From: Stenotrophomonas raiganjensis (SeqCode)
Lineage (GTDB): Bacteria; Pseudomonadota; Gammaproteobacteria; Xanthomonadales; Xanthomonadaceae
DNA: 64,000 nt
Direction of reading: 5' to 3'
Assembly (NCBI RefSeq): GCF_030658505.1
Contig: NZ_JAUTXR010000134.1
Coordinates: 62,001-126,000 of the forward strand
Shown: positions 26,321 through 43,180 of the stretch, in pieces
How the letters are laid out: the number at the start of each line of letters is the position of its first letter
Position numbering within the stretch: position 1 is the stretch's first letter
Notes under the pieces: model-generated
Seen by the model: the letters and a program-made list of their open reading frames with translations, nothing else
The model's database searches: none
Told to the model about the DNA's origin: nothing
Position numbers and translations under genes: made by a program

Positions 26321-26670
26321 CGGTCGATCCAATTGCGAGGGAATGCCGTTCCCCGTCCTGCCTGTTCCGGCCAAAGCCGGTCCCACCGGTCCGGGAGACA
26401 GGTAGGGAGGTGGGTCGAGTCAGCCTTTCAATTTTAGGCCGTCACCCATCATTTAAGAAAGGCATTGACATTGATCGAGCGCAGGAAAGGTCCGATTCTG
26501 GCTGCGACACGTTGTCGCACCGCGCGGGCGCGGCGGGCAGGACGCCCGGGGGCGGCATCCTGGCATCGGGTGCTGGCCGGCGGTCCGCCCTCGTTCGGCA
26601 AAGTCATCTGAACCTGTTCAGGCGTGCTGACAGGTGCCCGGCATGGGATGCTCGGCGCTGGAGGAAGCCC
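26321..26670. other. Divergent intergenic region, cyoA / GyrI-like gene
   Basis: This 350-bp gap must hold the cyo promoter (minus) and the GyrI-like gene promoter (plus). A TTGACA element sits at 26465-26470 without a convincing -10 at the right distance. A CCGGCC-AAAG-CCGG mini-hairpin occurs near 26368. No coding capacity was supported. Confidence 0.4.
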
Positions 26671-27291: not shown

Positions 27292-27319
27292 GGTTCACGC
27301 ACATGACACAAGGAACGCC

Positions 27320-27652
27320 ATGCGCCTGATCAACCGGCTGCTGAACTGGACCACCCTGCCCGCTGGGCGCCGCCTGATGGCCGTGCTGGGTGCTGCGCTG
27401 GTGATCGTGCTGGCCTGCAATCCGGCGCTGTCGCCGTTGCTGCCGGTGGTGGACGCGCTCGGGCTGGACGTGCTGGTGCTGTTGCTGGGTGCGCAGATGG
27501 TGGCGGTACTGCCTTGGGTGCGGGAGCGGGCCGCGCGCGGGACCAAGGTGCTCGCACGCCTGCTGATCGGCGCATCGGCGGGAGCAGCAGGTGGCTATCT
27601 CCGGCAGCTCGCGTGGTGGCTGGCACGGGGCGCAGGGATGACGAGGCGTTGA
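27320..27652 (+). CDS. Small membrane protein
   Basis: A 110-aa product with two or three hydrophobic segments (LMAVLGAALVIVLACNPALS, LDVLVLLLGAQMVAVLP) and a basic C-terminus. The ATG follows AGGAACGCC. It is the last chromosomal gene before the island and may be co-transcribed with the GyrI-like gene 28 bp upstream. No family recognised. Confidence 0.55.
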   Translation: MRLINRLLNWTTLPAGRRLMAVLGAALVIVLACNPALSPLLPVVDALGLDVLVLLLGAQMVAVLPWVRERAARGTKVLARLLIGASAGAAGGYLRQLAWWLARGAGMTRR

Positions 27653-27712
27653 TGAAGGCTTGCAGCCTTCGGTGAGGTGGTCATCCAATGATCACCGGCG
27701 GGCACAAACAAA

Positions 27713-27737
27713 AAGCCCCAACCAAAGGTTGGGGCTT
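27713..27737 (-). terminator. Original chromosomal terminator of tRNA-Thr, displaced to left island end
   Basis: Eleven-bp arms AAGCCCCAACC and GGTTGGGGCTT with an AAA loop are followed on the minus strand by TTTTTGTTTG. It lies directly downstream of the truncated tRNA 3' copy and resembles the different hairpin behind the intact tRNA at 41919-41940. Confidence 0.75.
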
Positions 27738-27745
27738 CTCATTAC

Positions 27746-27793
27746 AACTGGTGCCGGAAACAGGAGTCGAACCTGCGACCTACGCATTACGAA
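27746..27793. repeat. Left attachment repeat (48-bp tRNA-Thr 3' copy)
   Basis: It is identical over 48 bp to 41949-41996. It contains the tRNA 3' end from just beyond CCA through the acceptor, T arm and anticodon 3' stem to the anticodon loop. Identity stops after GCATTACGAA. It is not a functional tRNA because the 5' half is missing. Confidence 0.92.
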
Positions 27794-28236
27794 CCCACGC
27801 CAGATCAGCGACTTACCGGCAAAGTACAGTACGTGCGACCTCCGAGCCGACCACGCCGGGATGGGCCGACACGCCGGGATGGCTCGCTGGGATCGACCCA
27901 AGCAGATCAGGACAAGACAGCCTGTACAACCATAAGTGCCAACTAAGCCAGAGCCCGACGCGCGCCGAGGCTGACGTCAACGCATAAGATCGAAAGCGAC
28001 TCGGCTTATACAACCCGATCACAACTAAGCATGAGACTCGAACTCCGCCATTCGAGTGCGACTTGTAACGACATACCCGCCACATGGAAGAACTTGATGA
28101 GCCTCACCGACGGATAGCCCAGACCAATTAGCCCTTCAGTTGCGGTCGTCAATGGTGTTTAATCGCTACGGGGCCAACCAGCCTTGCAACCAGGCAACTT
28201 ACGCCAGCAGTAAAACTACAGCAAGAGGGAACGCTA
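27794..28236. other. Non-coding left end of island
   Basis: No supported gene. It has a 12-bp tandem repeat (ACGCCGGGATGG, twice near 27855-27885) and a stretch around 28030-28050 (TGAGACTCGAACTCCGCC) that resembles the complement of a tRNA T arm. It probably includes recombinase arm sites, tRNA debris and the hamA promoter. Confidence 0.4.
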
Positions 28237-29202
28237 GTGGTGAATGCACAGGACTTGGCATTTGAAAAGCTTCTGGACCGGATTGACGGGCTCGACAATG
28301 TTCTGAAGGAGGTTGAGGCCAGCCCCCGACTCGAACAGCCTCGCCTGCTCTTCCTGAGGTTTCGCCAAGAAGAACCTGAGCTAGATGCGCTTGCTGAGTT
28401 GCTGACCGATCTACTGGTGGACTACGCGATTCCGCTAAGCAAGCGCCAGCAGGCAAACGTTGCCGGTAGCAATTCGGCCACACAAGGCAGCACTGTAATG
28501 CACGTTCGGCTTTACAGAGAAGCCAAAAGGTTGCTCATCGAATATGAGAGGGCTAACCAAGGCCGGTATGGCGAACTAGGAGAGCTGCTATCGTACGCTA
28601 TTGCTGTGCACTACCTCGGCGCGGCACAGATCGGGTCTAAGATGGCCCTCAAGACGTCTCAAGGCATGCCTATTCACGGCGTCGATGGCTTGCATGTGAG
28701 GGCCAACGACGACGGCACGGTGTCTTTTTTCTTTCTAGAGTCGAAGATGATGCCCGATGCAACCGATGCCTCGAGGGACATGGTTGCGTCAATTGTGGAC
28801 TATCGGGCAGACCGCTCAAAGAAGCTCAACGAACTCAGGTTAGTTACTGACCTTTCCAACTTTGACGCACTTACCGGCGAGCAGCGCGACGCCGCGAAGT
28901 CGTTCTTCAATTCCTATCAAGGGAACGGAAGTCATCTGAAGCGTCGCGATGTGCATGTCGGCAGCTTGGTCTTCAGTGAATCTGCATACAGGGATAAGCT
29001 CCCCGTTGACCACGGAAAGCCCATAACGATCCACGAAGATCACCTTGAAAAGCTGTACATGAAACAACATGAGCGCTTCAAGGCGAACCTTGAACGACAG
29101 GCAATGGCGAAGAATCTCGACTTGGCGAGCTGCATAGTGTTCTTTGTGGCCGTTCCAGACATCAATGAACTGAAGAGAGTGTTCGCGGAACTCAACAAAT
29201 GA
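28237..29202 (+). CDS. hamA: Hachiman anti-phage system nuclease HamA (DUF1837)
   Basis: A 321-aa protein matching the DUF1837/HamA layout. The segment YGELGELLSYAIAVHYLGA is followed by SKMALKTSQGMPIHGVDGLH and FFFLESK. D150, E168 and K170 form a PD-(D/E)XK-type nuclease core. In Hachiman, HamA is held inactive by HamB and degrades DNA when HamB senses damage. Start codon GTG at 28237 (another GTG at 28240) follows AGAGGGA. It overlaps hamB by 4 nt (ATGA). The family call is by motif and partner; I could not run a profile search. Confidence 0.85.
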   Translation: MVNAQDLAFEKLLDRIDGLDNVLKEVEASPRLEQPRLLFLRFRQEEPELDALAELLTDLLVDYAIPLSKRQQANVAGSNSATQGSTVMHVRLYREAKRLLIEYERANQGRYGELGELLSYAIAVHYLGAAQIGSKMALKTSQGMPIHGVDGLHVRANDDGTVSFFFLESKMMPDATDASRDMVASIVDYRADRSKKLNELRLVTDLSNFDALTGEQRDAAKSFFNSYQGNGSHLKRRDVHVGSLVFSESAYRDKLPVDHGKPITIHEDHLEKLYMKQHERFKANLERQAMAKNLDLASCIVFFVAVPDINELKRVFAELNK

Positions 29203-31856
29203 CGAGCTTTGCATCTGAGCTTGCCCATGACATTCGCCAAGAACCTTCGTTCTGGGCAGACCTTGCTTCGCTGCGAGCCGCTGGAATTCGATCCACGTTG
29301 CTTCCCTCAAGCGCGGGCACTCGTTCCTCGGAGGTCGCGGTGGTCCAAGGGCCAGATCTGAACGAACAGGCTTTAGTCAGGCTCTTGAATTCAGCAAGCA
29401 TCTTCGCCCAGGCAACCGACGCGACGAGTCTCGACCTCGCGCAGCAGATCGCCGTGTTTGCATCCCTTGCCTCTGATGACACAGGGACTTATGACGCTGC
29501 GGTCCATATTCTCACCGGTCTAGGCAATTTCCCAGGATTGACCAAGCTTCGAGCGCAAAGAGCCGAAGATCAGGGTCTACAAAGTCGCATCCGCACCGCC
29601 CTGTTGCGGGAACTTAACTCGGTAGACATGGCCGGCAAGCGTGTGGCGCTCACGAACTTTCAGTTCGGCGTCTGGGATAGCCTTCAAAACAGAGGCTCAA
29701 CGGCCATATCTGCCCCGACGTCAGCGGGAAAATCCTACGTTGTCATGGAGCACCTCTGCGAAAGCGCCATAGCCGCCGAGAAATTTGTTGCGCTCTACAT
29801 AGCTCCTACTCGAGCATTATTGACGGAGATTCAAGGAAAGCTCGAGAAGCGCTTAGCCGCGATCACTGACAAGCTGCGAGTTACGACCGTGCCAGTTCTC
29901 GATCCTGAGGATCGGCCCAAGCAGATTTATGTTTTGACGCAAGAGCGAGCTCAGCTGCTGCTTTCTACCGTAAACGTGAGTGGTCTGATTGACCTGGTCA
30001 TCATCGATGAGGCTCAGGCCATTGGCGATGATAGCCGCGGCATGATCCTCCAAGACGCCGTGGAGAAAGTTCATGCGGCCAACTCCGGTGCGCGTTTCCT
30101 CTTCCTCGCACCTGGCGCTAGTGGTTTTGAGTTAGTCGGGGATAGCGTCGGAATCTCTGAGCTTGACGTGAGGGAGACCAGTCTGTCGCCGGTCGTGCAG
30201 AATCGCATCAGCGTTAGCTTCCCAGTCGCAAACGAACACCTGGTTGAGCTTGACCTAGTTACCGCCACTGGCCTTGAGCGCATTGGCTCCTATACCTTTG
30301 AAAGGGGCTTCGCCCTCACAGAAGACGCGAAGCTTGCTGCTGTGGCGGAGGAGTTTGGCTCCTCCGGAAGGTCGCTCGTGTACGCCACCGGCGCAAAGAA
30401 CGCGGAAGACCTGACTGCATTGATTGCGCTGAATCGCAAGCCTCACGATTCGCCCTACCTCAAGGAACTGGCTAAGTTCATCGAGGAGCATGTTCACAAG
30501 CAATACTCGTTGGCGGGATTCGTGCGCCGTGGTGTGGCGTTCCACTACGGCAACATGCCAAGCCTTCTTCGTGAGGGGATCGAGGCGAGCTTTCGAGATG
30601 GACATCTCGACTACCTTTGCTGCACAACAACGTTGTTCCAAGGTGTCAATCTACCTGCACGGAATGTGTTCATCGATACTCCAACCCGAGGAAAAGGGGA
30701 TCTACTGGACGAAGCAGCGCTTTGGAACTTCGCCGGGCGCGCCGGTCGGCTTGGCGAAGAGATCGTGGGAAACGTTTTCCTGGTCGACTACGAGAACTGG
30801 GAAACGCAGCCGCTGACCATACGAAAGCCGTTCGAAATCAAGGTCGCCTTCAAAGAAACGCTTGAGGCTAAATTTGAAGAAATCCTAGATTTCCTTGAGA
30901 CGGCAAGCAGACCGGCACCCGACGAAGTGCGCAAGCGAGCGGAAGACCGCGTCACCGCTGCGGCAGGACTGGTGCTCTTCCGTGCAGCTCAGGGCAATCT
31001 AGACGCACTTCTTGGAAGAGCAAGCCTTTCCCTCAGTGCAGATCAAAAGACAAGGCTTTCTAGTAACGCTAGGGAAGCGCTGACGCAACTTGGCCTACCG
31101 TCGGCAGTTCTGACGAGCAGCTGGATGGTCGATCCCGTGGCACTGGCCAGTCTCCTAACAAGACAGAAAGAGCTGATCCGCAAGGGCGAGTTCAGCAAAC
31201 TGATGCCGGTGAATCCGGCATCGGACGCATACACCGTTTACAACAGCATCATTCGCCGTATGTACAAGCATCTTGGCGGGATGACTCTCAGCGGCGAAGA
31301 AGGCAAGAAGGCGCGCGGTTTTGTAAATCACGTCACGGTGACCGCTCTCAGCTGGATGCGAGGCGATCCTCTTACAAAACTGGTTCGAGATGCAGTGAAG
31401 TACCGCGTTTCCGTTGCCAAGCAAGGCCCTAGACTCAAGCCTGAACAGGCCGTAGTCGACGCGGCAATACGGGAGATGTTCACCTTAATCGAACAGACTA
31501 TCCGCTTTAAGCTCGTCCAGTGGGCTAAAGCTTATGTAGATCTCCTTAAGTTTGCGCTTGAGGTTGAGGGAAGGCCCGAGATGGTTGCGCAGGTGTATGA
31601 CTTTTCACTAGCGCTAGAGCTTGGAGTGTCAACAAAGACCGGCAGGTCGCTCGTAGAGTTTGGACTCTCCCGAATCACGGCTTCCGCAGTTGCAGCGCTT
31701 ATTACCGACTCTTCGCTCCCCCCTGACAAGGTAAAAGCCTGGATCGGGGCTCAGCCGCCTGAAATGCTGTCAAAACTATCCGGCCTGATCCTTGCAGAGC
31801 TGCGCGCCAAAGAACTCTTGGGGAGCGAATTGGAGGATGACAACCTCAGTTCATAG
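29199..31856 (+). CDS. hamB: Hachiman system helicase HamB (DEAD/DEAH, Ski2-like)
   Basis: An 885-aa superfamily 2 helicase. Walker A APTSAGKS is at 172-179, the IIDEAQ box at 268-273, motif V QGVNLPA at 481-487 and motif VI FAGRAGRLGEE at 511-521. These are Ski2-type signatures. An N-terminal helical region of about 145 residues precedes the core and a helical C-terminal region of about 340 follows. In Hachiman, HamB is the ATP-dependent DNA-scanning partner of HamA. The translational overlap with hamA supports a stoichiometric complex. Base composition is clearly lower in GC than the core genome. Confidence 0.87.
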   Translation: MTSFASELAHDIRQEPSFWADLASLRAAGIRSTLLPSSAGTRSSEVAVVQGPDLNEQALVRLLNSASIFAQATDATSLDLAQQIAVFASLASDDTGTYDAAVHILTGLGNFPGLTKLRAQRAEDQGLQSRIRTALLRELNSVDMAGKRVALTNFQFGVWDSLQNRGSTAISAPTSAGKSYVVMEHLCESAIAAEKFVALYIAPTRALLTEIQGKLEKRLAAITDKLRVTTVPVLDPEDRPKQIYVLTQERAQLLLSTVNVSGLIDLVIIDEAQAIGDDSRGMILQDAVEKVHAANSGARFLFLAPGASGFELVGDSVGISELDVRETSLSPVVQNRISVSFPVANEHLVELDLVTATGLERIGSYTFERGFALTEDAKLAAVAEEFGSSGRSLVYATGAKNAEDLTALIALNRKPHDSPYLKELAKFIEEHVHKQYSLAGFVRRGVAFHYGNMPSLLREGIEASFRDGHLDYLCCTTTLFQGVNLPARNVFIDTPTRGKGDLLDEAALWNFAGRAGRLGEEIVGNVFLVDYENWETQPLTIRKPFEIKVAFKETLEAKFEEILDFLETASRPAPDEVRKRAEDRVTAAAGLVLFRAAQGNLDALLGRASLSLSADQKTRLSSNAREALTQLGLPSAVLTSSWMVDPVALASLLTRQKELIRKGEFSKLMPVNPASDAYTVYNSIIRRMYKHLGGMTLSGEEGKKARGFVNHVTVTALSWMRGDPLTKLVRDAVKYRVSVAKQGPRLKPEQAVVDAAIREMFTLIEQTIRFKLVQWAKAYVDLLKFALEVEGRPEMVAQVYDFSLALELGVSTKTGRSLVEFGLSRITASAVAALITDSSLPPDKVKAWIGAQPPEMLSKLSGLILAELRAKELLGSELEDDNLSS

Positions 31857-32018
31857 CAGGACTTCAACTGTGAGGTGTCGCCCTTTTAGTTAACAAGCAC
31901 TCTTAGGTCAAGTCACCAATCACGTGAATTAGCTTCAGGCTTCGCGCACCTACCATCCGGTCGCGCGAGATATCGAGTGTCTGGCGACTCTCAGTGAGAG
32001 CCGCAAGCGATAGCCACC

Positions 32019-33293
32019 TCATCCCACTTGACTTACTCTGGCTCCGAAGTACCGCAAGACCTTTGTCGTTCTGCCATTGATGATCGGCAGCTCATCTCGG
32101 TTGGTCCAGCCAACCAGTTCTTGTACGTTCGCCCGCCCAAACTCATTCAACTTGAACTTCGGCGAATAAATGGCGTTTGCCATCCTCTCTACGATGTCTC
32201 CTCGGCCATGCACGATGTATGCGAGAGTCTTCCTCGTCTTGGCCGGGTCATTGAAGCTTGGAAACTGCTTCTTCCAGGTTGGCAGTCCTCCCTCAAAGAA
32301 CCTGAATCGATCATGGAACGAGTGCAGCGTTGCCAATGCATCGAACAACTCCGAGTCGTCGGCCTTACTAATCGAATCTTCGGTTGAGAAGATAGACTTT
32401 AAGCGAGGATAATTATCGGCGACAATCCTTCCCTCAAAATGCGGCCAAGGAGTTCGGCTCCAGGCTTCAATCAGTGGCTCAAGCATCGACCGCTGCTCAG
32501 TCTCTGAACGTAACGGCGCACTCGCCCAAGAGTCGCCACTTGCCGCAGTCTCGCGCACATAGCTGAGAAATGAGTCGATCTCGATGCGCAGAGGAATTTT
32601 CTCCTCAGAAATTTTTCTATATCCACTAGCCTCATAGATCCGTCTGACGACATTGAAGGCTGAAGTGGTTTCTTGATAGCTACGCCTAAAGCCATCAATG
32701 AAGGCAGAGCGCACATCCTTCTTGGCTTCACTGCGATCGATGTTTGCAGGTGATGTCTCACCAAGTACTCCAAGGACGTTCTGCTCCAGAGCTCCAATTT
32801 CATGGTCGAGCTTGGAGTATTGTCGATAGAAGTCTCTATAAGCGGCCAATTCCGAGTCAGTCGGCACTGTTGCGCCGGCCCAATAGTCATCAAATATCGA
32901 TACAAGATCCTGAAGGCAGTCGTCATGCTGATCGATGTGAACAACAACCTCCTGGTTCGTCACCAGAGCGGATCGAGTCAGATTCGCAGATCCGACCAAG
33001 GCCTCCTCATCCCCTAGTATGTAAAGCTTTGGATGGAAGGTTCTGCTTGTATAGACTCGCAAGTTCATGTTCGGGTGCTTTCGCACACGGTCTATCGCAT
33101 CAGGACTAGTAGGGAATCCAAGTCTAACGACCATATAGACGCTGCAACCCTTGTACAACAGTTTCTCGACCACTTCAGCGTCCGTGAAGAATGCGGACGC
33201 AATGTAGACAGAAAGACCGCGATTTGCCCATCGCTCCAGCTCGTTCAGTAGAAAATCGCCCTTGGAATTCCTGTTCGCATAGATCGATCTCAT
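32019..33293 (-). CDS. Phospholipase D-like (HKD) domain protein, putative nuclease
   Basis: A 424-aa protein without signal peptide. An N-terminal PLD domain has the motif HPKLYILGDEEALVGSANLT (H87, K89, D95 region, then G-S-x-N), the single-HKD form seen in nucleases such as BfiI-type restriction enzymes and in helicase-associated PLD domains. A helical middle region follows. The C-terminus contains FGRANVQELVGW and PIINGRTTKVLRYFG, reminiscent of helical domains attached to defence nucleases. It converges on hamB with a 162-bp gap, so it is a separate transcript. A role in phage defence is inferred from context. Confidence 0.65.
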   Translation of the reverse strand: MRSIYANRNSKGDFLLNELERWANRGLSVYIASAFFTDAEVVEKLLYKGCSVYMVVRLGFPTSPDAIDRVRKHPNMNLRVYTSRTFHPKLYILGDEEALVGSANLTRSALVTNQEVVVHIDQHDDCLQDLVSIFDDYWAGATVPTDSELAAYRDFYRQYSKLDHEIGALEQNVLGVLGETSPANIDRSEAKKDVRSAFIDGFRRSYQETTSAFNVVRRIYEASGYRKISEEKIPLRIEIDSFLSYVRETAASGDSWASAPLRSETEQRSMLEPLIEAWSRTPWPHFEGRIVADNYPRLKSIFSTEDSISKADDSELFDALATLHSFHDRFRFFEGGLPTWKKQFPSFNDPAKTRKTLAYIVHGRGDIVERMANAIYSPKFKLNEFGRANVQELVGWTNRDELPIINGRTTKVLRYFGARVSQVG

Positions 33294-33650
33294 GCAAGCC
33301 CCTAGCTCGCGGTGTGAATGGAACGATTGTATAGCCGCCCAAAGCACTGGCAGGGGCCGCCAATCCGGGAGGTGCACTCTTCGCTCGCATCAGACCCACA
33401 CTCGCCGCACAAAGGGGCACGCAGTACTGATGCAGTTACTCATGGCACCACAGGCGGCCAGAAGTCCTTTTGGAACAATGACTTAGCCAACCCCAACTGG
33501 CAGCCATGGTGCCGATAAGTGCCTTGTAAGCCGGGGAGCCATCACTTTGAGCTGATTCGGGCCCATGAAGCCCCAGGGAAAGCCAGGTAGGGCTCACGCC
33601 TGCTTTCAAGGCGGACAGCGGCCTGTGGTGTACGTGCCCCGGAATCGAAC
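33294..33650. other. Island non-coding gap with tRNA-like remnant
   Basis: No convincing gene. Short frames on both strands lack family signals. At about 33630-33655 the text TGCCCCGGAATCGAACCTACG resembles a reversed tRNA T arm, but the stem does not pair. Confidence 0.35.
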
Positions 33651-33989
33651 CTACGTGTAGTACCTCTCATTGACGTTACGGCGACAGGCAAGACACTTCC
33701 GATACAACCCATATCTCCCGTCGCGCTCCCGTCCCAGCAAGCCACCGCATTCGCAAACCAAGGCGCTGCGCCCTTGGTCCCAGCGCCAAAGCTCTAGAGT
33801 AGCGACAAGTGCAAGGGTGACCGATACCGCGATAGCCAACGCTGGGAGCCATCGCGCCATCGCATACACCCCTGCAAGCACCGGACTCTCCCGGAGCATT
33901 CCCAACGGCAGCATCAGCAGCAACCCCAGCGCCAAAGCCCCAAGTGCGGGCGCATACATCCTTACCATCATCCACGTCCAACGATCCAT
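33651..33989 (-). CDS. Small membrane protein with C-terminal zinc ribbon
   Basis: A 112-aa product. Two hydrophobic segments (APALGALALGLLLMLPLGML and LPALAIAVSVTLALVATLEL) are followed by a cytosolic C-terminus with CECGG and CLACR, four Cys that could bind zinc. No family recognised. It is isolated between two gaps. A second zinc-ribbon membrane gene with the domains in opposite order lies at 37358-37699. Confidence 0.5.
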   Translation of the reverse strand: MDRWTWMMVRMYAPALGALALGLLLMLPLGMLRESPVLAGVYAMARWLPALAIAVSVTLALVATLELWRWDQGRSALVCECGGLLGRERDGRYGLYRKCLACRRNVNERYYT

Positions 33990-34393
33990 GTAGCCGTCCC
34001 GGTGATTGTTTTATGCATCCTTAAGCAAATCGATCGCAGGGGATGAGACTTGAACGGCGAACTTTCTTTGCCGCCCGTACAAGGCCGAACACCACCGTAC
34101 GCTTCATACATGGCCACCATGTCTTACGACTGCAGGCACCTGCTCATACACCGCCGCCCACGTCCTGCGTGCTTAACTTAGGCAGCATGCGCTTTTGTAG
34201 CGCTTAGCATGGGGCAGACGGCAGCACTCATTGCGCTCGCGAAAGTGACGGTTAGCCCTACCCGCTCTGGCACCCGATCGGCAGAGAGAGACTTGCGCTA
34301 TCCATGCTTGAACCACAACCGCATTACCCAGATCTCCGGCTAATGATCACGTCATATAGGCTAGGTATGACGCGGATCGGCAGCAGCGCTTCA
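33990..34393. other. Non-coding island segment
   Basis: No gene supported. The sequence around 34040-34060 (GATGAGACTTGAACGGCG) looks like the complement of a tRNA T arm, again without a complete tRNA. The stretch runs into the structured region at 34394-34594. Confidence 0.35.
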
Positions 34394-34594
34394 TGCATGG
34401 CAGAGGCCGCAAGGGCATGCAGAGCTCCCGAGACAGGGTCCTAACGGACGGGAAACCGGTGTGCCTCCAAAAGGCCGGAGGATCGCCTACGAGCGATCCA
34501 GCCGAGGGAGAATTCCTAAGGAGATGCAAATTGAACACCAACTCGTACCCTCCCGGGGGGGGCGTCGGGGCGGCAGCGCCTGCCGGAAGCCGAC
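34394..34594 (+). ncRNA. Candidate structured RNA region
   Basis: About 200 nt packed with complementary segments. TGCATG (34394-34399) pairs with CATGCA (34416-34421), and CTCCC (34425-34429) with GGGAG (34506-34510) as a closing stem. Inside are GTCC-TAAC-GGAC (34438-34449), CCTCC with GGAGG (34464-34481) and GGATCGC with GCGATCC (34480-34499). Next comes a two-part hairpin: GTCGG (34564) with CCGAC (34590) around CGGCAG-CGC-CTGCCG. No family matched; the strand is uncertain. GC-rich sequence forms hairpins by chance, so this is a candidate only. Confidence 0.35.
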
Positions 34595-34630
34595 CTCTAC
34601 AGCGCTAGGATCTCCGGGCTGTGAGGCCTC

Positions 34631-34701
34631 GATGTCACGCTTCCCTATATATGTTAGAGCTTATAAATAAGAGCTAATAAATATTAGGGAAGCGTGACAT
34701 C
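34631..34701. repeat. 17-bp perfect inverted repeat with AT-rich loop
   Basis: Arms GATGTCACGCTTCCCTA (34631-34647) and TAGGGAAGCGTGACATC (34685-34701) are exact complements. The 37-nt loop is AT-rich and has its own weak inner stem (CTTAT-AA-ATAAG). It lies 23 bp after the stop of the 368-aa gene. It could be a terminator-like hairpin, a miniature inverted-repeat element or a protein-binding dyad. Confidence 0.85.
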
Positions 34702-34724
34702 TCGGCCAGTGCTGGGAGCCTCGC

Positions 34725-35831
34725 CTATTCTTGGCTCTTGCGTTTCTTCCCATCCCGGCGCTGTTTGTCCCTCTCGCGCCTCTGGATCACCTTGGGATCC
34801 GCTGCCTCCTTCAGCACACGGTGAAGCTCCTGATCCGTCATAGCGGCCCCACTGCGCTCTCGCTCTCGCTGTCGACGCTTGCGGTCTCGGGCCGCAATGC
34901 GCTTACGCTCCTTCGGAACGTTCAGCACCCCGAATCGCTCCTGGACGCTTTTCTCGACTGCGGCACGAAATTCGGTGCAACGCTGGGCTACCGGACATTG
35001 GCTGCAGATTGCATGCCCTTCGGTGCGCATACCAAAGCAGGCTGGATCGGAGGGCCCGGGGGCATCAAGCACCACCGGAGTGCGCGACGTGTAACCCCCT
35101 CGGTGGGCCTTAGCCTCATCGACGAGCTCCTGCCCAAACCGGCGCGTAGCCTCTGCTTCCGAAATCAGCTGTTCGACGCACATGAAGCGGTGAAGCAACA
35201 CTGGTTTGCGAGCACGTCCGGCCTTAGCAATCTGCTCCTCGATCCACGCCAGGGCGTCCAGCTGCTGTTGGTCGCCCACGAAGTTAGCCGCATAGAATCG
35301 CGGGTCGAAGTCCTTTGCAAAGGGATCGAAAACACCTTCCGCCCGCTTCTCCTCCAAGCGCTCGAGCAGCATGGGCAGCTTGGAATCACTGCAAAGCTGA
35401 TTCGGGCGTGGCAGCTGTCGCGTCCCGCTAGCGTCAGCATCCAGCATCAGCTCAATGACATACCGTTCGTAGGGCACCCCCATCGCATCCGCGCGCTGGC
35501 GTGCCCGCCAGATGCTAGCGAAATCGCCTGCCTCAAGGCCATTAATACGGCTCGGGAACCCCTGCGGCTCGCGCCCCTTACGTCGCAAGAAGCGATGCAC
35601 GTAGTGTTTTCGATACGCTTCATAGAAGCTCTGCGTGCGGTCGTACGCACTCATGTATCGGTACGTCAGATGTGCAGATCGCGCAAAGTCCGGTTCTTCA
35701 TCAAAGTCGCCCGGCATAAGCCATTCCCGTGCCTGCACCATTTTCTCCGTCGCCAGCGCATCGGCGCCAACCTTCTTGGCCGCGGCCAATTTCTTGGCGC
35801 GACAATATCCTTCCATACTCATTCCTGACAT
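34725..35831 (-). CDS. Unknown protein with four-Cys cluster and GVPY motif
   Basis: A 368-aa soluble basic protein. Residues 108-121 are WRARQRADAMGVPY, a motif also present in the 154-aa neighbour. C265-x10-C276-x2-C279-x5-C285 (CFGMRTEGHAICSQCPVAQRC, shown in part: SQCPVAQRC) could bind a 4Fe-4S cluster or zinc; the spacing resembles WhiB-like and other small Fe-S clusters. The C-terminal 70 residues are strongly charged (RDRKRRQRERERSG), typical of nucleic-acid binding. No family recognised. Lower GC and island position indicate transfer. Confidence 0.6.
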   Translation of the reverse strand: MSGMSMEGYCRAKKLAAAKKVGADALATEKMVQAREWLMPGDFDEEPDFARSAHLTYRYMSAYDRTQSFYEAYRKHYVHRFLRRKGREPQGFPSRINGLEAGDFASIWRARQRADAMGVPYERYVIELMLDADASGTRQLPRPNQLCSDSKLPMLLERLEEKRAEGVFDPFAKDFDPRFYAANFVGDQQQLDALAWIEEQIAKAGRARKPVLLHRFMCVEQLISEAEATRRFGQELVDEAKAHRGGYTSRTPVVLDAPGPSDPACFGMRTEGHAICSQCPVAQRCTEFRAAVEKSVQERFGVLNVPKERKRIAARDRKRRQRERERSGAAMTDQELHRVLKEAADPKVIQRRERDKQRRDGKKRKSQE

Positions 35832-35947
35832 CTCGTATCCGTTGCCCCTCAGTGAGGAGTGAAGCTAATGCGCTAGCAGCGCCGTCATTTGATTACGTCG
35901 ATAGATGCGGTGGGCCCTCCGCATACAGGACTATCGCCCCAATACAA

Positions 35948-36412
35948 TCAGTTCTGCCGCTCAGCGACGCGGTCGACGGACATCTCCGCGTTCCAGCGAT
36001 CCATCACATGCAGTTGCACGTCCGGCGCGATGAGCATTTTCGGAGTGATCCGCTTCTTCCCCTTCATATCCCGCAGGTAGCGCACCGCAACGTCAATGTA
36101 GACCCCATAAGGGACACCGAGCATGTCAGCAGCCTGACGCGCCGCCCAAAGCATGCGGAACATGGAGACATCGCATACGCGCATATCGTGCCTCAGCGAG
36201 CGATCACCTACGTGGGCTGCGAACAGCTCCGCGAAATTGGACGTCGCGCGGAACGGGGACAGGTCGCTGCACTCGAAGGAGCGGCGTTGCGCACATGCAT
36301 TCTCCCTTGCCATTGCGGCCTCCCCCACAATTTCGAGCGCGGTCTCGTGTTCAACCTGCTCGACCGAACCACCCGCCCCAAACATCGAAATTGCACGAAT
36401 CAGGTCAGTCAT
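35948..36412 (-). CDS. Unknown protein sharing the GVPY motif
   Basis: A 154-aa soluble protein. W89-AARQAADMLGVPY102 matches the motif in the 368-aa downstream gene (W-x-ARQ-x-AD-M/L-GVPY-x-x-Y), and both place it after a region with an aromatic-rich helix, so the two share a domain. It lacks the four-Cys cluster and basic tail. The ATG at 36412 was chosen because the upstream part of the frame runs through an inverted repeat at 36470-36502. The genes are 116 bp apart on the same strand and diverge from a MarR-like regulator. Confidence 0.55.
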   Translation of the reverse strand: MTDLIRAISMFGAGGSVEQVEHETALEIVGEAAMARENACAQRRSFECSDLSPFRATSNFAELFAAHVGDRSLRHDMRVCDVSMFRMLWAARQAADMLGVPYGVYIDVAVRYLRDMKGKKRITPKMLIAPDVQLHVMDRWNAEMSVDRVAERQN

Positions 36413-36469
36413 CTCATTGCCTCTCGTAAGCACAGCCAGTCGCTGTACGAGCAGCCTAGCGACTGCAAT

Positions 36470-36502
36470 ATGGCGGGATGTACGATACGGACATCCCGCC
36501 AT
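36470..36502. promoter_or_regulatory. 12-bp perfect inverted repeat between divergent genes (operator or hairpin)
   Basis: Arms ATGGCGGGATGT and ACATCCCGCCAT enclose 9 nt (ACGATACGG) and are followed by TTTTTC. It lies 14 bp before the start of the MarR-like gene and 58 bp before the divergent 154-aa gene. It could be the regulator's own operator or a leader terminator. Confidence 0.75.
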
Positions 36503-36515
36503 TTTTCACTCATGT

Positions 36516-36986
36516 ATGAAGCCTGGATCCAGAAAGTTCCCAGAGATTGAGCAACTATTGGCACTGGCAAGGCTAGTTCGGAAAAGGCTCGATGAGCAGC
36601 TGGATGAAATCGGTTTGGACACCAACATGTATTTGGCAATGAGCGAAATTGATCGCCTCTGCAAGCGGGGATCACACGCAATCAGAGCTAATGTGGCGAA
36701 GAGCTTGGGTATGTCACCGACCTCGATGACAGGCATCTATAGGCGGTTGGATGCCGCTGGTCTGATCGAAGAGCGGCAAGACGAGCCGATTTTTTTTGAC
36801 TCCACCCGACAGAAGTACGCAAGGCTCTCTGACAATGGCAAGAAGCTTCTAGGCCGCGCCAATGATGCCTGGGAGAAGATCAATGTCAGCTACCTGGGAG
36901 ATCTGAAGGACAGGCAGCTGAGAGACTTCTCATCGTCCATGGCAGTCATTCGCTCAGCACTGGAATCTAACGACGGTTTGGCGTAG
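36516..36986 (+). CDS. MarR-like winged-helix regulator
   Basis: A 156-aa protein. A helical N-terminus (LARLVRKRLDEQLDEIGLD) is followed by a winged helix: IRANVAKSLGMSPTSMTGIYRRL as recognition region, AAGLIEERQDEPIFFD and RQKYARLSDNGKKLLGRA as wing and following helix, in MarR order. A C-terminal dimerisation helix follows. The ATG at 36516 has no Shine-Dalgarno; upstream is a 12-bp inverted repeat plus T-run, so translation may be leaderless or regulated. It likely controls the divergent unknown genes. Confidence 0.65.
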   Translation: MKPGSRKFPEIEQLLALARLVRKRLDEQLDEIGLDTNMYLAMSEIDRLCKRGSHAIRANVAKSLGMSPTSMTGIYRRLDAAGLIEERQDEPIFFDSTRQKYARLSDNGKKLLGRANDAWEKINVSYLGDLKDRQLRDFSSSMAVIRSALESNDGLA

Positions 36987-37308
36987 CAGCCAAGCACGAT
37001 GCACGCTCCGGCTGTATGGAGTGCCTCAGGCGTCAACCCCAATTCGGCAGCGAGGTAACGCGACTTCCCCAACTCACCTAGGACTTCGCGACTTGGATGC
37101 GGATGATCCTGACCCTCTGCTCGATAGGAGCCTCAGCAATGCCAACCAATCGCGTCATAGCGCGCGTCGGACTGAGCAGCTACATCCCTGCATGCATAGT
37201 CGACGGAGCGCCCCACATCGCGCGTCAGGGCGTGCCAGTGCGCCTCTGACTACGGATAGCACACCCAAAAGAAGTTGGACCCAGATCGCAGACGTCGGCA
37301 CATACGAA
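36987..37308. other. Island gap without supported gene
   Basis: A short plus-strand frame crosses this gap (from 37021), but its product is low complexity, lacks a ribosome-binding site and overlaps a terminator and a real gene. I see nothing else in it. Confidence 0.4.
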
Positions 37309-37338
37309 AGGCCCGCTGACATCTCTGCCAACGGGCCT
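37309..37338 (-). terminator. Hairpin terminator after zinc-ribbon gene
   Basis: Seven-bp arms AGGCCCG and CGGGCCT with a 16-nt loop, followed on the minus strand by TTTCG, 19 nt after the stop of the gene at 37358-37699. Confidence 0.55.
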
Positions 37339-37357
37339 GATCAAGCTAGCGAGCAAG

Positions 37358-37699
37358 TTATCGGGGGCGAATGCCGAACCCAAGCAAGACAGCCCCAGCG
37401 ACGGTCAGAGCTTGCCCCACTGCGAGCGCGTGCATGTTCGCGATGTTGCTGTAGCCGTTTACTGATGGGTTGATCAGGAAGTAGAGCCCGATCCCAAGCC
37501 CAGCTAGGCCCAACACCACGCACAACGTCGCGGAGCCAAGCTCCTGCCTCGTGCTTGTAGCGGCGCGATTCGATTCAACAATTGCCTTGGGCAGGTCCGC
37601 ATAGCACTTAGGACACTTCGCGGATGATCTGCCCGAGGGGATCGCAGCATGACAAGCCGGGCATTGATAGAGATTAATTGCTGAATCGCTAGTTTGCAT
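37358..37699 (-). CDS. Zinc-ribbon membrane protein
   Basis: A 113-aa product. An N-terminal zinc ribbon (YQCPACH and KCPKCYADLP) is followed by two transmembrane helices (ATLCVVLGLAGLGIGLYFLI and VGQALTVAGAVLLGFGI). The ATG is preceded by GGAGAGAAC, a strong ribosome-binding site, which fixes the start against the longer frame. It lies 40 bp downstream of the exported-protein gene and is probably its operon partner. Function unknown. Confidence 0.65.
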   Translation of the reverse strand: MQTSDSAINLYQCPACHAAIPSGRSSAKCPKCYADLPKAIVESNRAATSTRQELGSATLCVVLGLAGLGIGLYFLINPSVNGYSNIANMHALAVGQALTVAGAVLLGFGIRPR

Positions 37700-37739
37700 G
37701 TTCTCTCCTCCATGATTGGATGTACGAAGGCTTTCGACA

Positions 37740-38273
37740 TCAGCCACCGGTTGAACTACCCATCTGAGCGTCCTTGACCAGATCACGCAGTGCAGCGCGT
37801 TGCTCATCGTCCAGGCTGTATTCGGTATCGCAGACCCGGACCTCGATCCTCTTGGCACCGGCGAAGGCCCCTGCTTCTGTCAAGGTCATCTTCTTGCCGA
37901 ACGAAAGGATGGCGTACTCGTATCGATTGAAAGCGGGCATGTCGCTGGGAAGCGAAACAGCCCTTCCATCCACGAGCATGTCAAAGCTCGTACCGGCACA
38001 GCGAACGTCATAGGACATGTTGAAGGTGACGATGGCTGAGACGGTGAAAGAGTCCGACTTCGTTACAGCGCGGTCTCCGTCTACCACGCTTTGCAGGCTC
38101 AGAGAAATGCCCCTGCTGGTCTTGGACAGCTCCGATAGCTCCACTTTGGCCTCGTAGGAGGTTCGATCCTTGAAACGGTCGTATGAGCGCTGTTGTTGGG
38201 CCACTACCACCCCGGGAACAACAGCCGTCAGCACCAACGACATGACGGCAACATGCGTAATCCGGTTCTTCAT
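37740..38273 (-). CDS. Exported protein of unknown function
   Basis: A 177-aa product with a clear signal peptide (MKNRITHVAVMSLVLTAVV, cleavage near VVVAQQ). The mature beta-rich domain has two Cys (VRCAGTS and VRVCDTEYS) and ends with an acidic helix (DDEQRAALRDLV). No family recognised. It precedes the zinc-ribbon membrane gene and diverges from the XRE regulator across an inverted-repeat region. Confidence 0.6.
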   Translation of the reverse strand: MKNRITHVAVMSLVLTAVVPGVVVAQQQRSYDRFKDRTSYEAKVELSELSKTSRGISLSLQSVVDGDRAVTKSDSFTVSAIVTFNMSYDVRCAGTSFDMLVDGRAVSLPSDMPAFNRYEYAILSFGKKMTLTEAGAFAGAKRIEVRVCDTEYSLDDEQRAALRDLVKDAQMGSSTGG

Positions 38274-38340
38274 CTCAACGTCCCCGACTGAGCGCTAACG
38301 GGCCCGGCCACCCCTTGCGGCCGGTCATACCTCGCACAAC

Positions 38341-38386
38341 GCCATATACTGCTATGGTAATTACTTCTACTGATCAGGTATATGGC
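38341..38386. promoter_or_regulatory. Inverted repeat in XRE divergent promoter
   Basis: Nine-bp arms GCCATATAC (38341-38349) and GTATATGGC (38378-38386) flank an AT-rich 28-bp centre. It lies between the exported-protein gene and the XRE gene. It is probably an operator for the XRE protein. Confidence 0.5.
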
Positions 38387-38422
38387 CCATGCTGCTGCAG
38401 GTTCACAGACCGTTACCTCCGC

Positions 38423-38764
38423 GTGCCCTCGCCCACTGTTATTACTGCAACGTTTTCCAAGCGGCTGTCCGAAGCTCGAGCACTGCGCGGGCTGTCCCAG
38501 CGCGCGCTGGGGGCGCTGGTGGATAAGGACCAGGACAAGAACCGGGGCGCTGTGCTGATCAACAGGTACGAGCGCGAACGAAACCAAGCCGACATGACCA
38601 AGGCTGCGGAGTTAGCCAAGGCATTGGATGTCCCGGTCGCCTACCTGTTCGCTGAGGACGATGACCTAGCTGCGGCGATCTTGGCTTTCGCCAAGCTTCC
38701 CTCTGCGGAGCGCCAAAGGATGCGAGAAGAGCTCGAGCGTTTGGCTGGAACGCAGAGGGGCTAG
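38423..38764 (+). CDS. XRE-family helix-turn-helix regulator
   Basis: A 113-aa protein with an N-terminal Cro/C1-type HTH: FSKRLSEARALRGLSQRALG, then NRYERERNQADMTKAAELAKAL. A C-terminal helix (SAERQRMREELERLAG) follows. I chose the GTG at 38423, which gives the common 10-residue lead before the HTH; an ATG at 38354 is possible but would run through the inverted repeat. It converges on the integrase gene. It probably regulates island genes or excision. Confidence 0.75.
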   Translation: MPSPTVITATFSKRLSEARALRGLSQRALGALVDKDQDKNRGAVLINRYERERNQADMTKAAELAKALDVPVAYLFAEDDDLAAAILAFAKLPSAERQRMREELERLAGTQRG

Positions 38765-38769
38765 CGCTC

Positions 38770-39972
38770 TCAAGCCGCCAGCTTGGCAACTGCCGCCGCC
38801 AGGGTGTCCGGGGCCAGGTGGGCGTAGCGAAGAGTCATGGTGATGTCTGCGTGTCCCAAGAGCTCCCGCACGGTGTTCAGGTCCACCCCTGCCCGCACCA
38901 GGCGCGATGCGAAGTGGTGCCGCAGGTCATGGAACCGGAACTGTTCAATGCGGGCATCGGCTATGAGTTTTCCCCACCCCTTCTTGATGTCGGTCACGTC
39001 GAAGACCTTGCCTGCGCGGCGCTCGCCCGCTTGCCTAGCCCAACGCTGCAGAACTTCCATGGCTTCGGCATTCAACGGGATGTGGCGCTGCCTACCCGAC
39101 TTAGCATTCGCCGCCTGGATGGTCAGCATCTTGGCTTCCCAATTGATGTCAGACCAGGTCATCGACAGCAACTCACCCCGTCTCATGCCGGTATTGATGG
39201 CCATAAGAACCACCGGAGTCAGGTGATCAACATAGCCGTCCATCGGCAGATCAGGCAGAACCGCTTGCCGATACCGGCGACGAGTAGCGTTGGCATTTGC
39301 CCTCCCTTCAACCCCGGCTAGATCGCGCGCTGCCAGTGCAGCCCGGAGCATCGCTTCTTCGTCCGGAGACAGGAACCGAACCACCTTGCGGCTAGCTGCT
39401 GATCGCTGACGCATGCCCATCAAAGGATTCGTCTCGATCAACTTCCACTCGACCGCACGGGACAAGGCAGACCGCAGGCAAGCGAAGTCGCGCGCTGCAG
39501 TGGCCTTGGTGACGGCATCGGGGCCACTGACACGCCCGCGCCACCATCGCTCCATCGTGGGCACGTCGATTTCGATGATCTGACGGCGTAACAGCCACGG
39601 GAACACTGATCGAATGCGGTCTGGGTACTGACGACCGCCCTTGAGCTCAGCCACGGCCCAAGGCTCGAAGTGATCGTTGAGCAGCGCTTCGAGGGTGCAG
39701 CTAGTGGGCTTCGACCTCGCGAGCGCGGGCAGCCCAGACTGAACGTACTCAGCAACTGCTTGACGGGCTTGGTCCCGGGCCTGGTCGAGCGTCAAGTGCT
39801 CGACCGACCCCAAGGTACGACGCTTACCGTGCGCCCAGGTGACGATCCAAGCTTTGTGGCCCGAGGGCTGCACTCGCAGGATCAGGCCGCGAACCTGAGC
39901 GTCCCTGAGCTCGTAGGGGCGATCTCGGGGCTCCGCCGTCAGAACTATGCGTTTGGTGAGCGCGGATGACAT
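38770..39972 (-). CDS. int: Tyrosine recombinase / island integrase
   Basis: A 400-aa phage-type integrase. The N-terminal arm-binding part (about 1-90) is of DUF4102 type (RDAQVRGLILRVQPSG), with a SAM-like core-binding region at about 95-190. The catalytic domain has R264 (NTGMRRGE), K291 (AKSGRQRHIPL), H348-x-x-R351 (FHDLRHHF), H374 (LLGHADI) and Y383 (LRYAHL), all present. It should recombine at the tRNA-Thr site. The start MSSALTKR was chosen; an extra 11 codons upstream are possible. The gene lies 2 kb from the intact tRNA, not adjacent, because an OLD-like gene intervenes. Confidence 0.93.
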   Translation of the reverse strand: MSSALTKRIVLTAEPRDRPYELRDAQVRGLILRVQPSGHKAWIVTWAHGKRRTLGSVEHLTLDQARDQARQAVAEYVQSGLPALARSKPTSCTLEALLNDHFEPWAVAELKGGRQYPDRIRSVFPWLLRRQIIEIDVPTMERWWRGRVSGPDAVTKATAARDFACLRSALSRAVEWKLIETNPLMGMRQRSAASRKVVRFLSPDEEAMLRAALAARDLAGVEGRANANATRRRYRQAVLPDLPMDGYVDHLTPVVLMAINTGMRRGELLSMTWSDINWEAKMLTIQAANAKSGRQRHIPLNAEAMEVLQRWARQAGERRAGKVFDVTDIKKGWGKLIADARIEQFRFHDLRHHFASRLVRAGVDLNTVRELLGHADITMTLRYAHLAPDTLAAAVAKLAA

Positions 39973-40056
39973 TGATCGGTGTCTCGTAAGTGGCGATAAG
40001 GCCAACTTAGGACAGGATGCGAGGCGGTGTTTGGATGCGGATCGTCCGCATGACGA

Positions 40057-41562
40057 CTACCTACCTCCGCGAAGAATGGGACCGAACTGCTGAAGAACCG
40101 CCGCTCTTGAGTTCCTGTAAGTATGATCAGCCAACAACTTGAGCAGAATGGTTCTGACATCGAACGATGTTGCGTTCGCAAGCTGATCGGCTAGCACCTT
40201 GCAAACACGATCAACAATGGCCTTACTCTCTTTCCGAGGCTTTACTGCTCCTTGAGGGACAGCAGGGACGTCTCCCGCGCGCAAGCTTAGAGTATTGAGC
40301 ATAAAGTGTTCCCTCAATGCCACTTGAACGTCTGCCCGGTTGGCATGCATGTAAGCGACAAGCCCCACTTCCGGAGTGAATGGAAGATATGAGATCTTCG
40401 CAGCTTGCCGCACTGCAATATCTACGATCTCAGGAACCGTGGCGTCCGCTATAGATTGCTCAGCATCTGCATCGAGGACGGCATAGGCCCGCGTGATTGC
40501 TGGGAGGAGCGGGGCTTGGCGCACAAAGAATCTGAGAACGTTTGCGAACCCTCCTACCGGGACTGCACTCACACTCGGTGAAAGAGCCCCGTCCGCATAA
40601 AAATGCGTGATCGCGTGATAAGCGAGTCGTTCTGCGACAATCCGCGCAGACTCATCTTCAACGTACATCAGAACGTCGGACGCGGCCTCTTCACGATAGG
40701 CGAGCGCGCCCAGTACGTATGAAGGGAAGCAGCCTTTCGTACATTGGACAACACCGTCTTCTGCCTCCTGAAGAAACAGTATGCTTTCACGTGACGCTTG
40801 CTTGATCAACGTGGAAGAATGCGTAGACACAATCACGGTCAAAGACTTGCTGCCTGCAATCTCACCCAGATGGCTAAGCAACTCTGCCTGCGCTGTAGGA
40901 TGAAGCGCAAGCTCAAGCTCATCTATCAACAAGAGGGAGTTGTCAGGGCAATCCTGCAGCATCCGCAGCAGCTTAATGATACACAGCTCACCCAAGCTAA
41001 GGTTCTTTTCTGAGAAGTAATGCTTCTTCCCCTCCACGTCCGGAAGCTCAATCAAGAATGCCTGACTCCCCACTCCTCGGCGCACATTAATTGTCTTCAG
41101 AGCGTCGAACTTGTTCGTGCAGAATATTCTGTTAGCCGCATCGATTATTCCTCGCGGGGCCGCGCGCACTCTTCTTGGCGAGAAATCTTCCCGACTCGGC
41201 TCGATTCGATCTGCATTCGCCCCGATGTAGAGCACGTTCGGGTACGGCAAGCGCGATAGAACTTTGCTGTTCTTCTTCGGCGTAGGAACCCACCGCTCAG
41301 TTCTGTACGTGTACGAAACGTTTCCGCCTGGCGTTTCGTAAGAGATTTTCGCTCCCTCGTAGGAATCCAATCGATCAGATTTTTTTGAAGCAGGGAAATG
41401 GAGAGGAAAGGAGTTACTAAATCCGATACGCCTGATGCACCCGAGCAGCGAAGTCTTCCCCGTGCCATTTGCACCAGTGAGCAGCCACAATCCCTGATTC
41501 GGGATTTCAAACTCTAGACGTTTGATATGGCGCAGGTTTTCAATGATGATCTTCGAAGGCAT
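40057..41562 (-). CDS. OLD-like ATPase with TOPRIM nuclease domain
   Basis: A 501-aa protein. The ABC-type ATPase has Walker A TGANGTGKTSLL (30-38), a signature-like LSLGEL (188-193), Walker B LLLIDELELALHP (210-222) and H248 in STHSSTL. The TOPRIM part has YVEDESAR (E302), VGGFANVL and VLDADAEQS (D364, D366). This order is the OLD family, whose members act in phage defence alone (class 1), or with a UvrD-like helicase (Gabija GajA) or reverse transcriptase partners. No such partner is encoded nearby. The ATG at 41562 is just before the conserved beta strand. A defence role is inferred. Confidence 0.8.
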   Translation of the reverse strand: MPSKIIIENLRHIKRLEFEIPNQGLWLLTGANGTGKTSLLGCIRRIGFSNSFPLHFPASKKSDRLDSYEGAKISYETPGGNVSYTYRTERWVPTPKKNSKVLSRLPYPNVLYIGANADRIEPSREDFSPRRVRAAPRGIIDAANRIFCTNKFDALKTINVRRGVGSQAFLIELPDVEGKKHYFSEKNLSLGELCIIKLLRMLQDCPDNSLLLIDELELALHPTAQAELLSHLGEIAGSKSLTVIVSTHSSTLIKQASRESILFLQEAEDGVVQCTKGCFPSYVLGALAYREEAASDVLMYVEDESARIVAERLAYHAITHFYADGALSPSVSAVPVGGFANVLRFFVRQAPLLPAITRAYAVLDADAEQSIADATVPEIVDIAVRQAAKISYLPFTPEVGLVAYMHANRADVQVALREHFMLNTLSLRAGDVPAVPQGAVKPRKESKAIVDRVCKVLADQLANATSFDVRTILLKLLADHTYRNSRAAVLQQFGPILRGGR

Positions 41563-41918
41563 TCCATTCCCCTGTATCGACACTCGTGAGAGTGTAGCCG
41601 GTATGATCCGGCCAGAGGGGTGTATTCGACCGGAGCTTAAGGACGGCGGCCTTTCTCGTGAGTCATCTATCGGAACTCCAAGAGCGTCGCGCTCATCAGT
41701 CTTTGGCTCAGCTGCATCCCGCATCTCACGAATAGCGGCTGTACAGCGAACTGCCGTATCCAGCTAAGTCAGCCTGAAGCCACCCTGTTGATGGAGCCGC
41801 CGCCTCCGGCGCGGACACGATCCATCCGCAACCAGCAGCAGTGACGCCGAGCAAGCAATCTGTCCGGCAGCGAATCCCTCACCAATCAGTGACTTCCAAC
41901 GCCCCGCCACAAACAAAA
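41563..41918. other. Right-end island gap
   Basis: No supported gene. It contains the promoter region of the OLD-like gene, with a small dyad (CCGGTATGATCCGG near 41600), and the distal part of the attachment region. Confidence 0.4.
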
Positions 41919-41940
41919 AGCCCCGACCAAGGCCGGGGCT
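41919..41940 (-). terminator. Terminator of tRNA-Thr, supplied by the island
   Basis: Arms AGCCCCG and CGGGGCT are followed on the minus strand by TTTTTGTTTG, directly downstream of the intact tRNA. Stem bases differ from the left copy at 27713-27737. Confidence 0.8.
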
Positions 41941-41948
41941 CTTCATGG

Positions 41949-41996
41949 AACTGGTGCCGGAAACAGGAGTCGAACCTGCGACCTACGCATTACGAA
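41949..41996. repeat. Right attachment repeat (48 bp, within tRNA-Thr)
   Basis: Identical to 27746-27793. It covers the tRNA 3' half to the anticodon loop, so integration preserved a complete tRNA here. Confidence 0.92.
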
Positions 41997-42027
41997 TGCG
42001 CCGCTCTACCAACTGAGCTATTCCGGC
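41952..42027 (-). tRNA. tRNA-Thr (anticodon CGT)
   Basis: A 76-nt cloverleaf on the minus strand including encoded CCA. The acceptor stem is GCCGGAA/TTCCGGC. The D arm is GCTC-AGTTGGTA-GAGC. The anticodon stem is GCGCA/TGCGT around TTCGTAA, giving anticodon CGT. The T arm has GGTTCGACTCC. It serves as the island's integration site and lies 50 bp after ldhA on the same strand. Confidence 0.95.
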
Positions 42028-42077
42028 GGAGCCCGCGATTTTACGGGCTGGGCGCCCCGGCGGTCAATCCACCCGGC

Positions 42078-43082: not shown

Positions 43083-43140
43083 GGACGGGCCTGGGTGGAA
43101 TGCCACGCCGACCATACCGCAGCAACGCGCCCTCTGGGGA

Positions 43141-43172: not shown

Positions 43173-43180
43173 CGTGCCAC

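Follow-up and report, generated by a model that had tools for sequence, protein, structure and literature searches.

Integrase-only defence islands have been described in passages of an E. coli pan-genome study, in which the way they move is called unclear (PMC10121019). The island reported here resembles them in its hotspot insertion, in its integrase and defence genes and in having no recognised transfer genes; what differs is that here one family of the Xanthomonadales is resolved, with a named core, two slots, apparent cross-species transfer and tandem arrays. It also resembles the P4-like satellites covered in PMC10121019 and the P2-like phages covered in PMC12629846, in that defence systems occupy variable positions of a conserved backbone. 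Unlike these, the island has no recognised P4 hallmark gene, and its slot A lies between an attachment arm and the integrase. In modular islands of Pseudomonas, too, defence modules are reported to be exchanged at set positions (PMC12629846), but those are PAPI, PAGI and LESGI islands, several of them ICE-derived, and the main text of that paper gave no hit for Stenotrophomonas. In S. maltophilia, 27 defence islands were described by their flanking core genes (PMC11680222). They are also defence islands with integrases and come from the same species complex; "Hachiman" is absent from the main text of that paper, and its main-text passages describe no tRNA-Thr element family. Among the titles and opening lines of abstracts listed in literature searches, no description of the element family was found. 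As far as these sources go, integrase-only defence islands and island defence hotspots are already known, and the tRNA-Thr family itself is without a description.

The window, that is the whole stretch of 64,000 nt analysed, contains one such island next to a tRNA-Thr gene. Its ends are marked by the following features (window coordinates):

27713..27737, minus strand: native tRNA-Thr terminator, displaced by the insertion (in G049, whose site is empty, sequence like the window's left flank comes after the terminator)
27746..27793, minus strand: distal attachment repeat, the displaced 3′ half of tRNA-Thr (48/48 against 41949-41996)
41919..41940, minus strand: island-supplied terminator, now serving the tRNA (comparison with G049)
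41949..41996, minus strand: proximal attachment repeat, the 3′ half of the intact tRNA (48/48)
41952..42027, minus strand: intact tRNA-Thr(CGT), the integration target (ARAGORN)

An earlier note on this DNA had described a perfect 48-bp direct repeat ending in the anticodon loop of an intact tRNA-Thr, and this description was exact. The two copies, 14,203 bp apart, are identical at all 48 positions; chance would not be expected to produce an exact match of this length in 64 kb. On the right, the copy forms the 3′ half of the intact tRNA-Thr(CGT), with identity opening at base 1 of the anticodon loop (TTCGTAA). ARAGORN found this tRNA as the sole one in the window, so the left copy is only the 3′ half of a tRNA-Thr. 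The repeat as two tRNA genes, and with it a second, unrelated tRNA gene as its explanation, was thereby ruled out. From the anticodon loop the shared block extends as far as the tRNA does, and beyond it an imperfect similarity persists through the terminator (90% over 91 nt, with 22 of 23 positions matching in one stretch). Because similarity continues through the terminator, the two terminators are diverged copies of one sequence and not unrelated ones. The sequence after the terminator in G049 corresponds to the left flank of the window, which identifies the terminator at 27713-27737 as native and that at 41919-41940 as island-supplied. The earlier view that the displaced chromosomal terminator survives beside the left repeat and that the tRNA now uses one brought by the island was therefore borne out, although the two are copies of one sequence. 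GC content was also below that of the flanks, as had been noted: per 1 kb it was 0.51-0.62 inside the island (28000-41999), against 0.61-0.65 in the left flank (22000-27999) and 0.65-0.70 in the right flank (42000-49999).

The survey comprised 91 Stenotrophomonas genomes, one per species and that of the window included, in which the flanks were searched and the tRNA-Thr locus was extracted. The tRNA-Thr region was covered in 87 of them (G028, G037, G068 and G077 were left out). Most loci were covered over 20 kb or to the contig end, so that the lengths given for arrays are minimum values. G063, G049 and G044 have empty sites consisting of tRNA-Thr, a single copy of the repeat core and one terminator, and the window's left-flank genes follow 68-100 nt past the tRNA. 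The distance from the tRNA to the first flank gene is ~750-785 nt in seven genomes (G025, G035, G036, G039, G045, G054 and G090). An empty site with a single repeat copy, which the earlier note had proposed to look for in relatives, was thus found; the opposite picture, most relatives carrying the same 14 kb and none an empty site, was not seen, for none of the 86 other loci has the same 14 kb. By these alignments the island boundaries are fixed by the empty sites of three other species. Lineage-ancestral DNA was ruled out by the empty sites together with the identity across species given below. The locus has what marks a tRNA-integrated island: an intact tRNA at one end, a fragment of it at the other, an intact tyrosine recombinase and an empty site in relatives.

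The island interior is arranged as follows:

27794..33420, no strand: slot B (variable), here with Hachiman and the phospholipase-D-type (PLD) gene (left boundary 33418-33421 in 4/11 comparisons)
28237..29202, plus strand: HamA, Hachiman nuclease (DUF1837) with D...ESK motif (PADLOC PDLC00172, 1.4e-132; Pfam HamA, 2.2e-34)
29199..31856, plus strand: HamB, Hachiman helicase with GKS, DEAQ and GRAGR motifs (PADLOC PDLC00187, E=0; Pfam DEAD)
32019..33377, minus strand: phospholipase-D-type nuclease-like protein with one HxK motif (Pfam PLDc_2, 1.4e-11)
33651..33989, minus strand: M112, small membrane protein with a Cys-rich end, core (74-95% in relatives)
34725..35831, minus strand: U368, core, phrog_2500 N-domain and C-terminal C-X10-C-X2-C-X5-C, WhiB-like (pLDDT 85.9)
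35948..36502, minus strand: U184, core, with a phrog_2500 segment in common with U368
36516..36986, plus strand: MarR-like regulator (weak Pfam MarR match, 0.012; 90% in G075)
37358..37858, minus strand: Zn-ribbon/membrane protein, an ORF (scanned against PHROGs only, no match)
37740..38273, minus strand: U177, core, signal-peptide-like start (82-98% in 9 other genomes of the genus)
38315..38764, plus strand: XRE-type regulator, core (Pfam HTH_3, 1.6e-6; 91-99% in relatives)
38770..40005, minus strand: tyrosine integrase (Arm-DNA-bind_3 and Phage_integrase), full length
39982..40050, minus strand: leader of ~70 nt before int, the slot A border (30 copies in 20/87 genomes)
40051..41764, no strand: slot A (variable), between conserved arm and leader
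40057..41724, minus strand: AAA ATPase with Toprim-like tail, OLD/retron I-B effector-like (PADLOC ATPase-Toprim_I-B, 1.8e-37)
41765..41905, minus strand: proximal arm with GGAA..TGATTGG-like motif and arm module (aligned in 13 elements, HMM)

The core set consists of leader, integrase, XRE regulator, U177, U184, U368 and M112, parts of which are lost in some members; the core region of the window also holds the MarR-like gene and the Zn-ribbon/membrane ORF. The complete tyrosine recombinase reported earlier inside the repeats proved full-length and carries an R-HxxR-LGH-Y signature; its true start is likely the ATG near 39972. SSU5-type phage-plasmids encode proteins related to the N-domain of U368. 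The four C-terminal cysteines of U368 are invariant across 12 aligned homologues, and the likeness to WhiB is weak (Pfam 0.0015, under the curated cut-off); the protein combines a WhiB-like four-cysteine motif, here in a gammaproteobacterial island, with a partner domain known from those phage-plasmids. The structural model of U368 is good, but none of the PDB chains it was compared with matched convincingly. A role as a helicase loader of the phage lambda P type was considered and rejected, as profile similarity to the P family was not found.

The defence-like content claimed for the island is confirmed by the PADLOC matches of HamA, HamB and the AAA/Toprim ATPase. HamA with its D-ExK motif and the adjacent HamB helicase with intact motifs correspond to the Hachiman HamAB pair, a DUF1837 nuclease with a D-E(X)K motif and, next to it, an SF2 helicase, of which HamB senses damaged DNA and HamA degrades DNA according to passages of PMC12278908. 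The difference from that account is that in the island they are ordinary cargo, with nothing new seen in either protein. HamB at E<=1e-60 occurred in 1 of the 91 genus genomes, the window's own; a source outside the genus representatives is therefore probable for the Hachiman module. Copies of the PLD-type protein in the G038 and G062 islands are 90% identical. The slot A ATPase has Walker A/B motifs and a DAD stretch.

In the relatives the two slots hold different modules, mostly anti-phage ones, which were typed by PADLOC on selected proteins. G062 has PDC-M36A in slot A (5.7e-45) and the RT-TIR of retron XII in slot B (1.7e-152). Slot A of G032 is weakly PDC-M36A-like (1.3e-10), and its slot B is OLD-like, split over two ORFs. 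G075 has Drt8 in slot A (1.7e-129) and a type IIG RM (E=0) with Ppl (2.3e-149) in slot B; G024 has bSEFIR in slot B (1e-45). Slot A of G080 holds an ORC-CDC6-like protein and a 149-aa protein without a PADLOC match, and its slot B a type II methyltransferase with four genes without a match. G033 and G015 have Rhs-type ORFs in slot A, and G444 has a type II restriction enzyme and methyltransferase upstream of int. In total, 8 of 10 islands carry a PADLOC defence gene, G038 and G015 being counted through near-identity to a scanned relative, and the sole match in G080 and G015 being the type II methyltransferase. No PADLOC defence gene was found in G033 and G083, with one cargo protein scanned in each.

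Two slot modules were seen in more than one species. A five-gene block in slot B of G080 (L071:11370-16631) and G015 (L156:418-5682) is 95.8% identical between the two species; it encodes proteins of 228 aa and 428 aa, an HD protein, the type II methyltransferase and an AIRS-domain protein. PADLOC matched the methyltransferase only, and the block is a candidate undescribed defence system. In slot A of L060 and L071, from two species and on different cores, a 501-aa ORC-CDC6-like ATPase stands with proteins of 149 and 166 aa; the two proteins of this module that were scanned had no PADLOC match.

XRE and U177 occur together at the locus in 10 of 87 genomes (G000, G015, G024, G032, G033, G038, G062, G075, G080 and G083), and in nine of these ten loci the integrase match spans 390 aa or more. 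Island sizes are 11-18 kb, with 9.9 kb for the broken island of G083, in which U368 is cut by an Rhs insertion; the G033 island runs to the contig end. The integrase of G075 (Stenotrophomonas sp. Ste86, L094) is split between frames, yet recognised defence genes stand in both slots. U177 is found in 11 of the 91 genomes, window included, ten of them at >=82%; the remaining copy, in G076, is 47% identical and lies away from the locus. Among 398 genomes of the order, integrase relatives at E<=1e-90 were present in 15, six of Stenotrophomonas and nine of other genera at 43-60% identity, and U368 relatives at E<=1e-5 in ten, five outside Stenotrophomonas. G444 retains integrase, XRE, U177 and U368. 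The element of G453 (Luteimonas) is at tRNA-Thr(CGT), and G347 and the second element of G309 (G309b) are at tRNA-Ala(CGC), with the integrase directly after the tRNA terminator and with a leader-like sequence. At the other end of the G453 island (Luteimonas sp. 4-12, L153) there is a 232-bp, 99.6% duplication of the tRNA-Thr 5′ half and its upstream region, which differs from the 3′-half repeats of Stenotrophomonas.

Comparison of the elements revealed recurring slot borders. In all 11 comparisons, with elements from nine genomes, homology to the window resumes at island position 1942-1948 (window ~40050), the first base of the ~70-nt leader before int. Slot B starts at 8576-8579 (window ~33420) in 4/11 comparisons (G015, G032, G033 and G080). 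In G038 and G062 the part shared with the window extends through the PLD gene to 9985; in G024 and G075 it ends earlier, and the other three elements have no match there. G038 and G062 are 98.3% identical from the leader to the distal att and have different slot A modules. G038 and G080 agree at 95.2% over 6.3 kb through att, slot A and integrase and are different downstream. G015 and G038 share 3.05 kb of core (U184 to M112) at 99.0%, with 90.8% in the leader-integrase part, and G015 and G080 are 95.8% identical from M112 through slot B. Flank identity is 86.9-90.5% for G038/G062 and 88.2% for G015/G038. Near-identical island stretches between flanks ~10% apart indicate recent movement, and on these identities the family has evidently moved between species.

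When an att copy was counted from 28 matching bases of the 45-base core upwards, two or more copies were present in 24 of 87 loci. Rhs-core ORFs were found in 20 of 87 tRNA-Thr loci (e.g. L036, L051, L057 and L066), many of them orphan C-terminal ORFs in arrayed segments that end with a tRNA-Thr 3′ piece and terminator. The short att-bounded segments often contain an Rhs C-terminal ORF and a putative immunity ORF, sometimes with a truncated integrase. The tRNA pieces of the segments are often shorter than the 45-nt core, so not all need stem from the island's integrase. In G038 two elements stand in tandem, of which the second has the slot A module of G062 beside a truncated integrase (95.9% over 3 kb). 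We infer that a tandem of this sort could serve as an intermediate in which recombination across the leader/integrase repeat exchanges slot A. A different terminator type follows tRNA-Thr in L040, L072 and L073 (G024, G015 and G062), pointing to a second kind of element; in G024 the next att copy among those listed is ~77 kb from the tRNA. Taken together, the alignments place the window island in a modular family whose two slots are exchangeable, at a tRNA where elements accumulate in tandem.

The sharp border of slot A calls for an explanation of its own. In 13 elements the terminator is followed by a common arm made up of two conserved parts, a GGAA..TGATTGG-like motif and a further module. 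The arm-module profile matched the leader in register in G062, G015, G000 and G024 (E 0.14-3.9, low scores) and in part in G038b; G309b matched at E=5e-4, in a search of two short sequences only. When 16 leaders were scored alone, ten matched in register (four at full length) and six gave no match, the best reaching 6.3 bits. In a control of 1,600 shuffled sequences, 14 reached 0.4 bits, the weakest real score, one reached 4.6, and one, at 9.5 bits, exceeded the best leader. Direct pairwise tests of arm against leader mostly failed. With moderate to weak confidence, the leader may thus be a second copy of the integrase arm module, with slot A between the two copies, and with the same confidence this two-arm state may be derived from the tRNA-arm-integrase order of G309b and G347.

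It is fairly probable that the border is simply the edge of a selected integrase promoter or arm, cargo being swapped by ordinary homologous or illegitimate recombination; the leader-like sequence that precedes an integrase right after the tRNA terminator in other genera, where slot A cargo is lacking (G309b and G347), fits this account, whereas the leader kept before truncated integrases, and the two related arm copies that may flank slot A, do not. We consider it improbable that the tRNA-Thr(CGT) locus is an integron-like cassette platform, in which the integrase would act both on the tRNA att sites and on the arm and leader sequences bracketing slot A. If it were one, single modules, either anti-phage or Rhs toxin/immunity pairs, could be inserted and exchanged behind one core, and att-bounded segments without an integrase could be moved in trans.

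As to the element as a whole, the 14.2 kb is very probably a non-conjugative, integrase-encoding mobile island at tRNA-Thr, with a shared core and two variable slots. Of the 12 island ORFs taken as genes, each compared with at least one of Pfam, PHROGs, PADLOC and NCBIfam, none was recognised as a relaxase, T4SS, capsid or packaging gene. No excised circle or attP was seen, and no close relative of the island turned up among the viral contigs or plasmids searched; hence transfer is read from sequence identity alone. The ORF scans thus found neither the relaxase and/or T4SS genes of an ICE or relaxase-bearing IME nor the capsid-hijack/packaging genes and alpha-type replication protein of a P4-like satellite. 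In P4 the capsid-hijack/packaging genes are psu, sid and delta. The phage-like pair of XRE repressor and integrase, and the relatives of the U368 N-domain in 110-kb SSU5-type phage-plasmids and in Pseudomonas and Rhizobium phages, would also suit a decayed prophage or ICE with the core as its residue. This is very unlikely: one small core, in which structural, relaxase and T4SS genes were not recognised, recurs in 10 Stenotrophomonas species, parts of it are present in other genera (G444, G453 and G309), and its spread is recent. Elements decaying independently would not all end up with one gene set.

Packaging by a helper phage after excision and replication, that is a phage satellite, is a tentative possibility to which the size of 11-18 kb, the integrase with XRE and the phage-type domain of U368 would lend themselves, as would defence cargo, common in satellites according to passages of PMC10121019. 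Against it, PHROG and Pfam scans gave no P4 or PICI hallmark, and no IMG/VR contig carried U177 or the integrase, one 31-aa match being taken as spurious. Integrated elements carrying just oriT are described in passages of PMC11389934, so that conjugative movement by a resident plasmid or ICE has a precedent; here, where no relaxase was recognised, we regard such an oriT-only IME as rather unlikely.

For the mobile island itself, the integrase would recombine a circular form with tRNA-Thr, the incoming copy rebuilding the tRNA and supplying a terminator while the old 3′ half would be pushed to the far end. New elements entering the same site would give tandem arrays. Recombination in these between repeated leader/integrase and arm sequences would swap slot A or delete an integrase, and such deletion would leave short att-bounded segments. 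Hachiman and the ATPase-Toprim protein would defend the host, by which the island would be kept, and transfer from cell to cell would need a helper, either a phage or a conjugative element.

The family offers a tractable case for how integrase-only defence islands move, through its precise empty and occupied sites, shared core, recurring slot borders and near-identical stretches across species. The tandem arrays look like exchange intermediates, and the slot modules without an assignment are candidates for undescribed defence systems.
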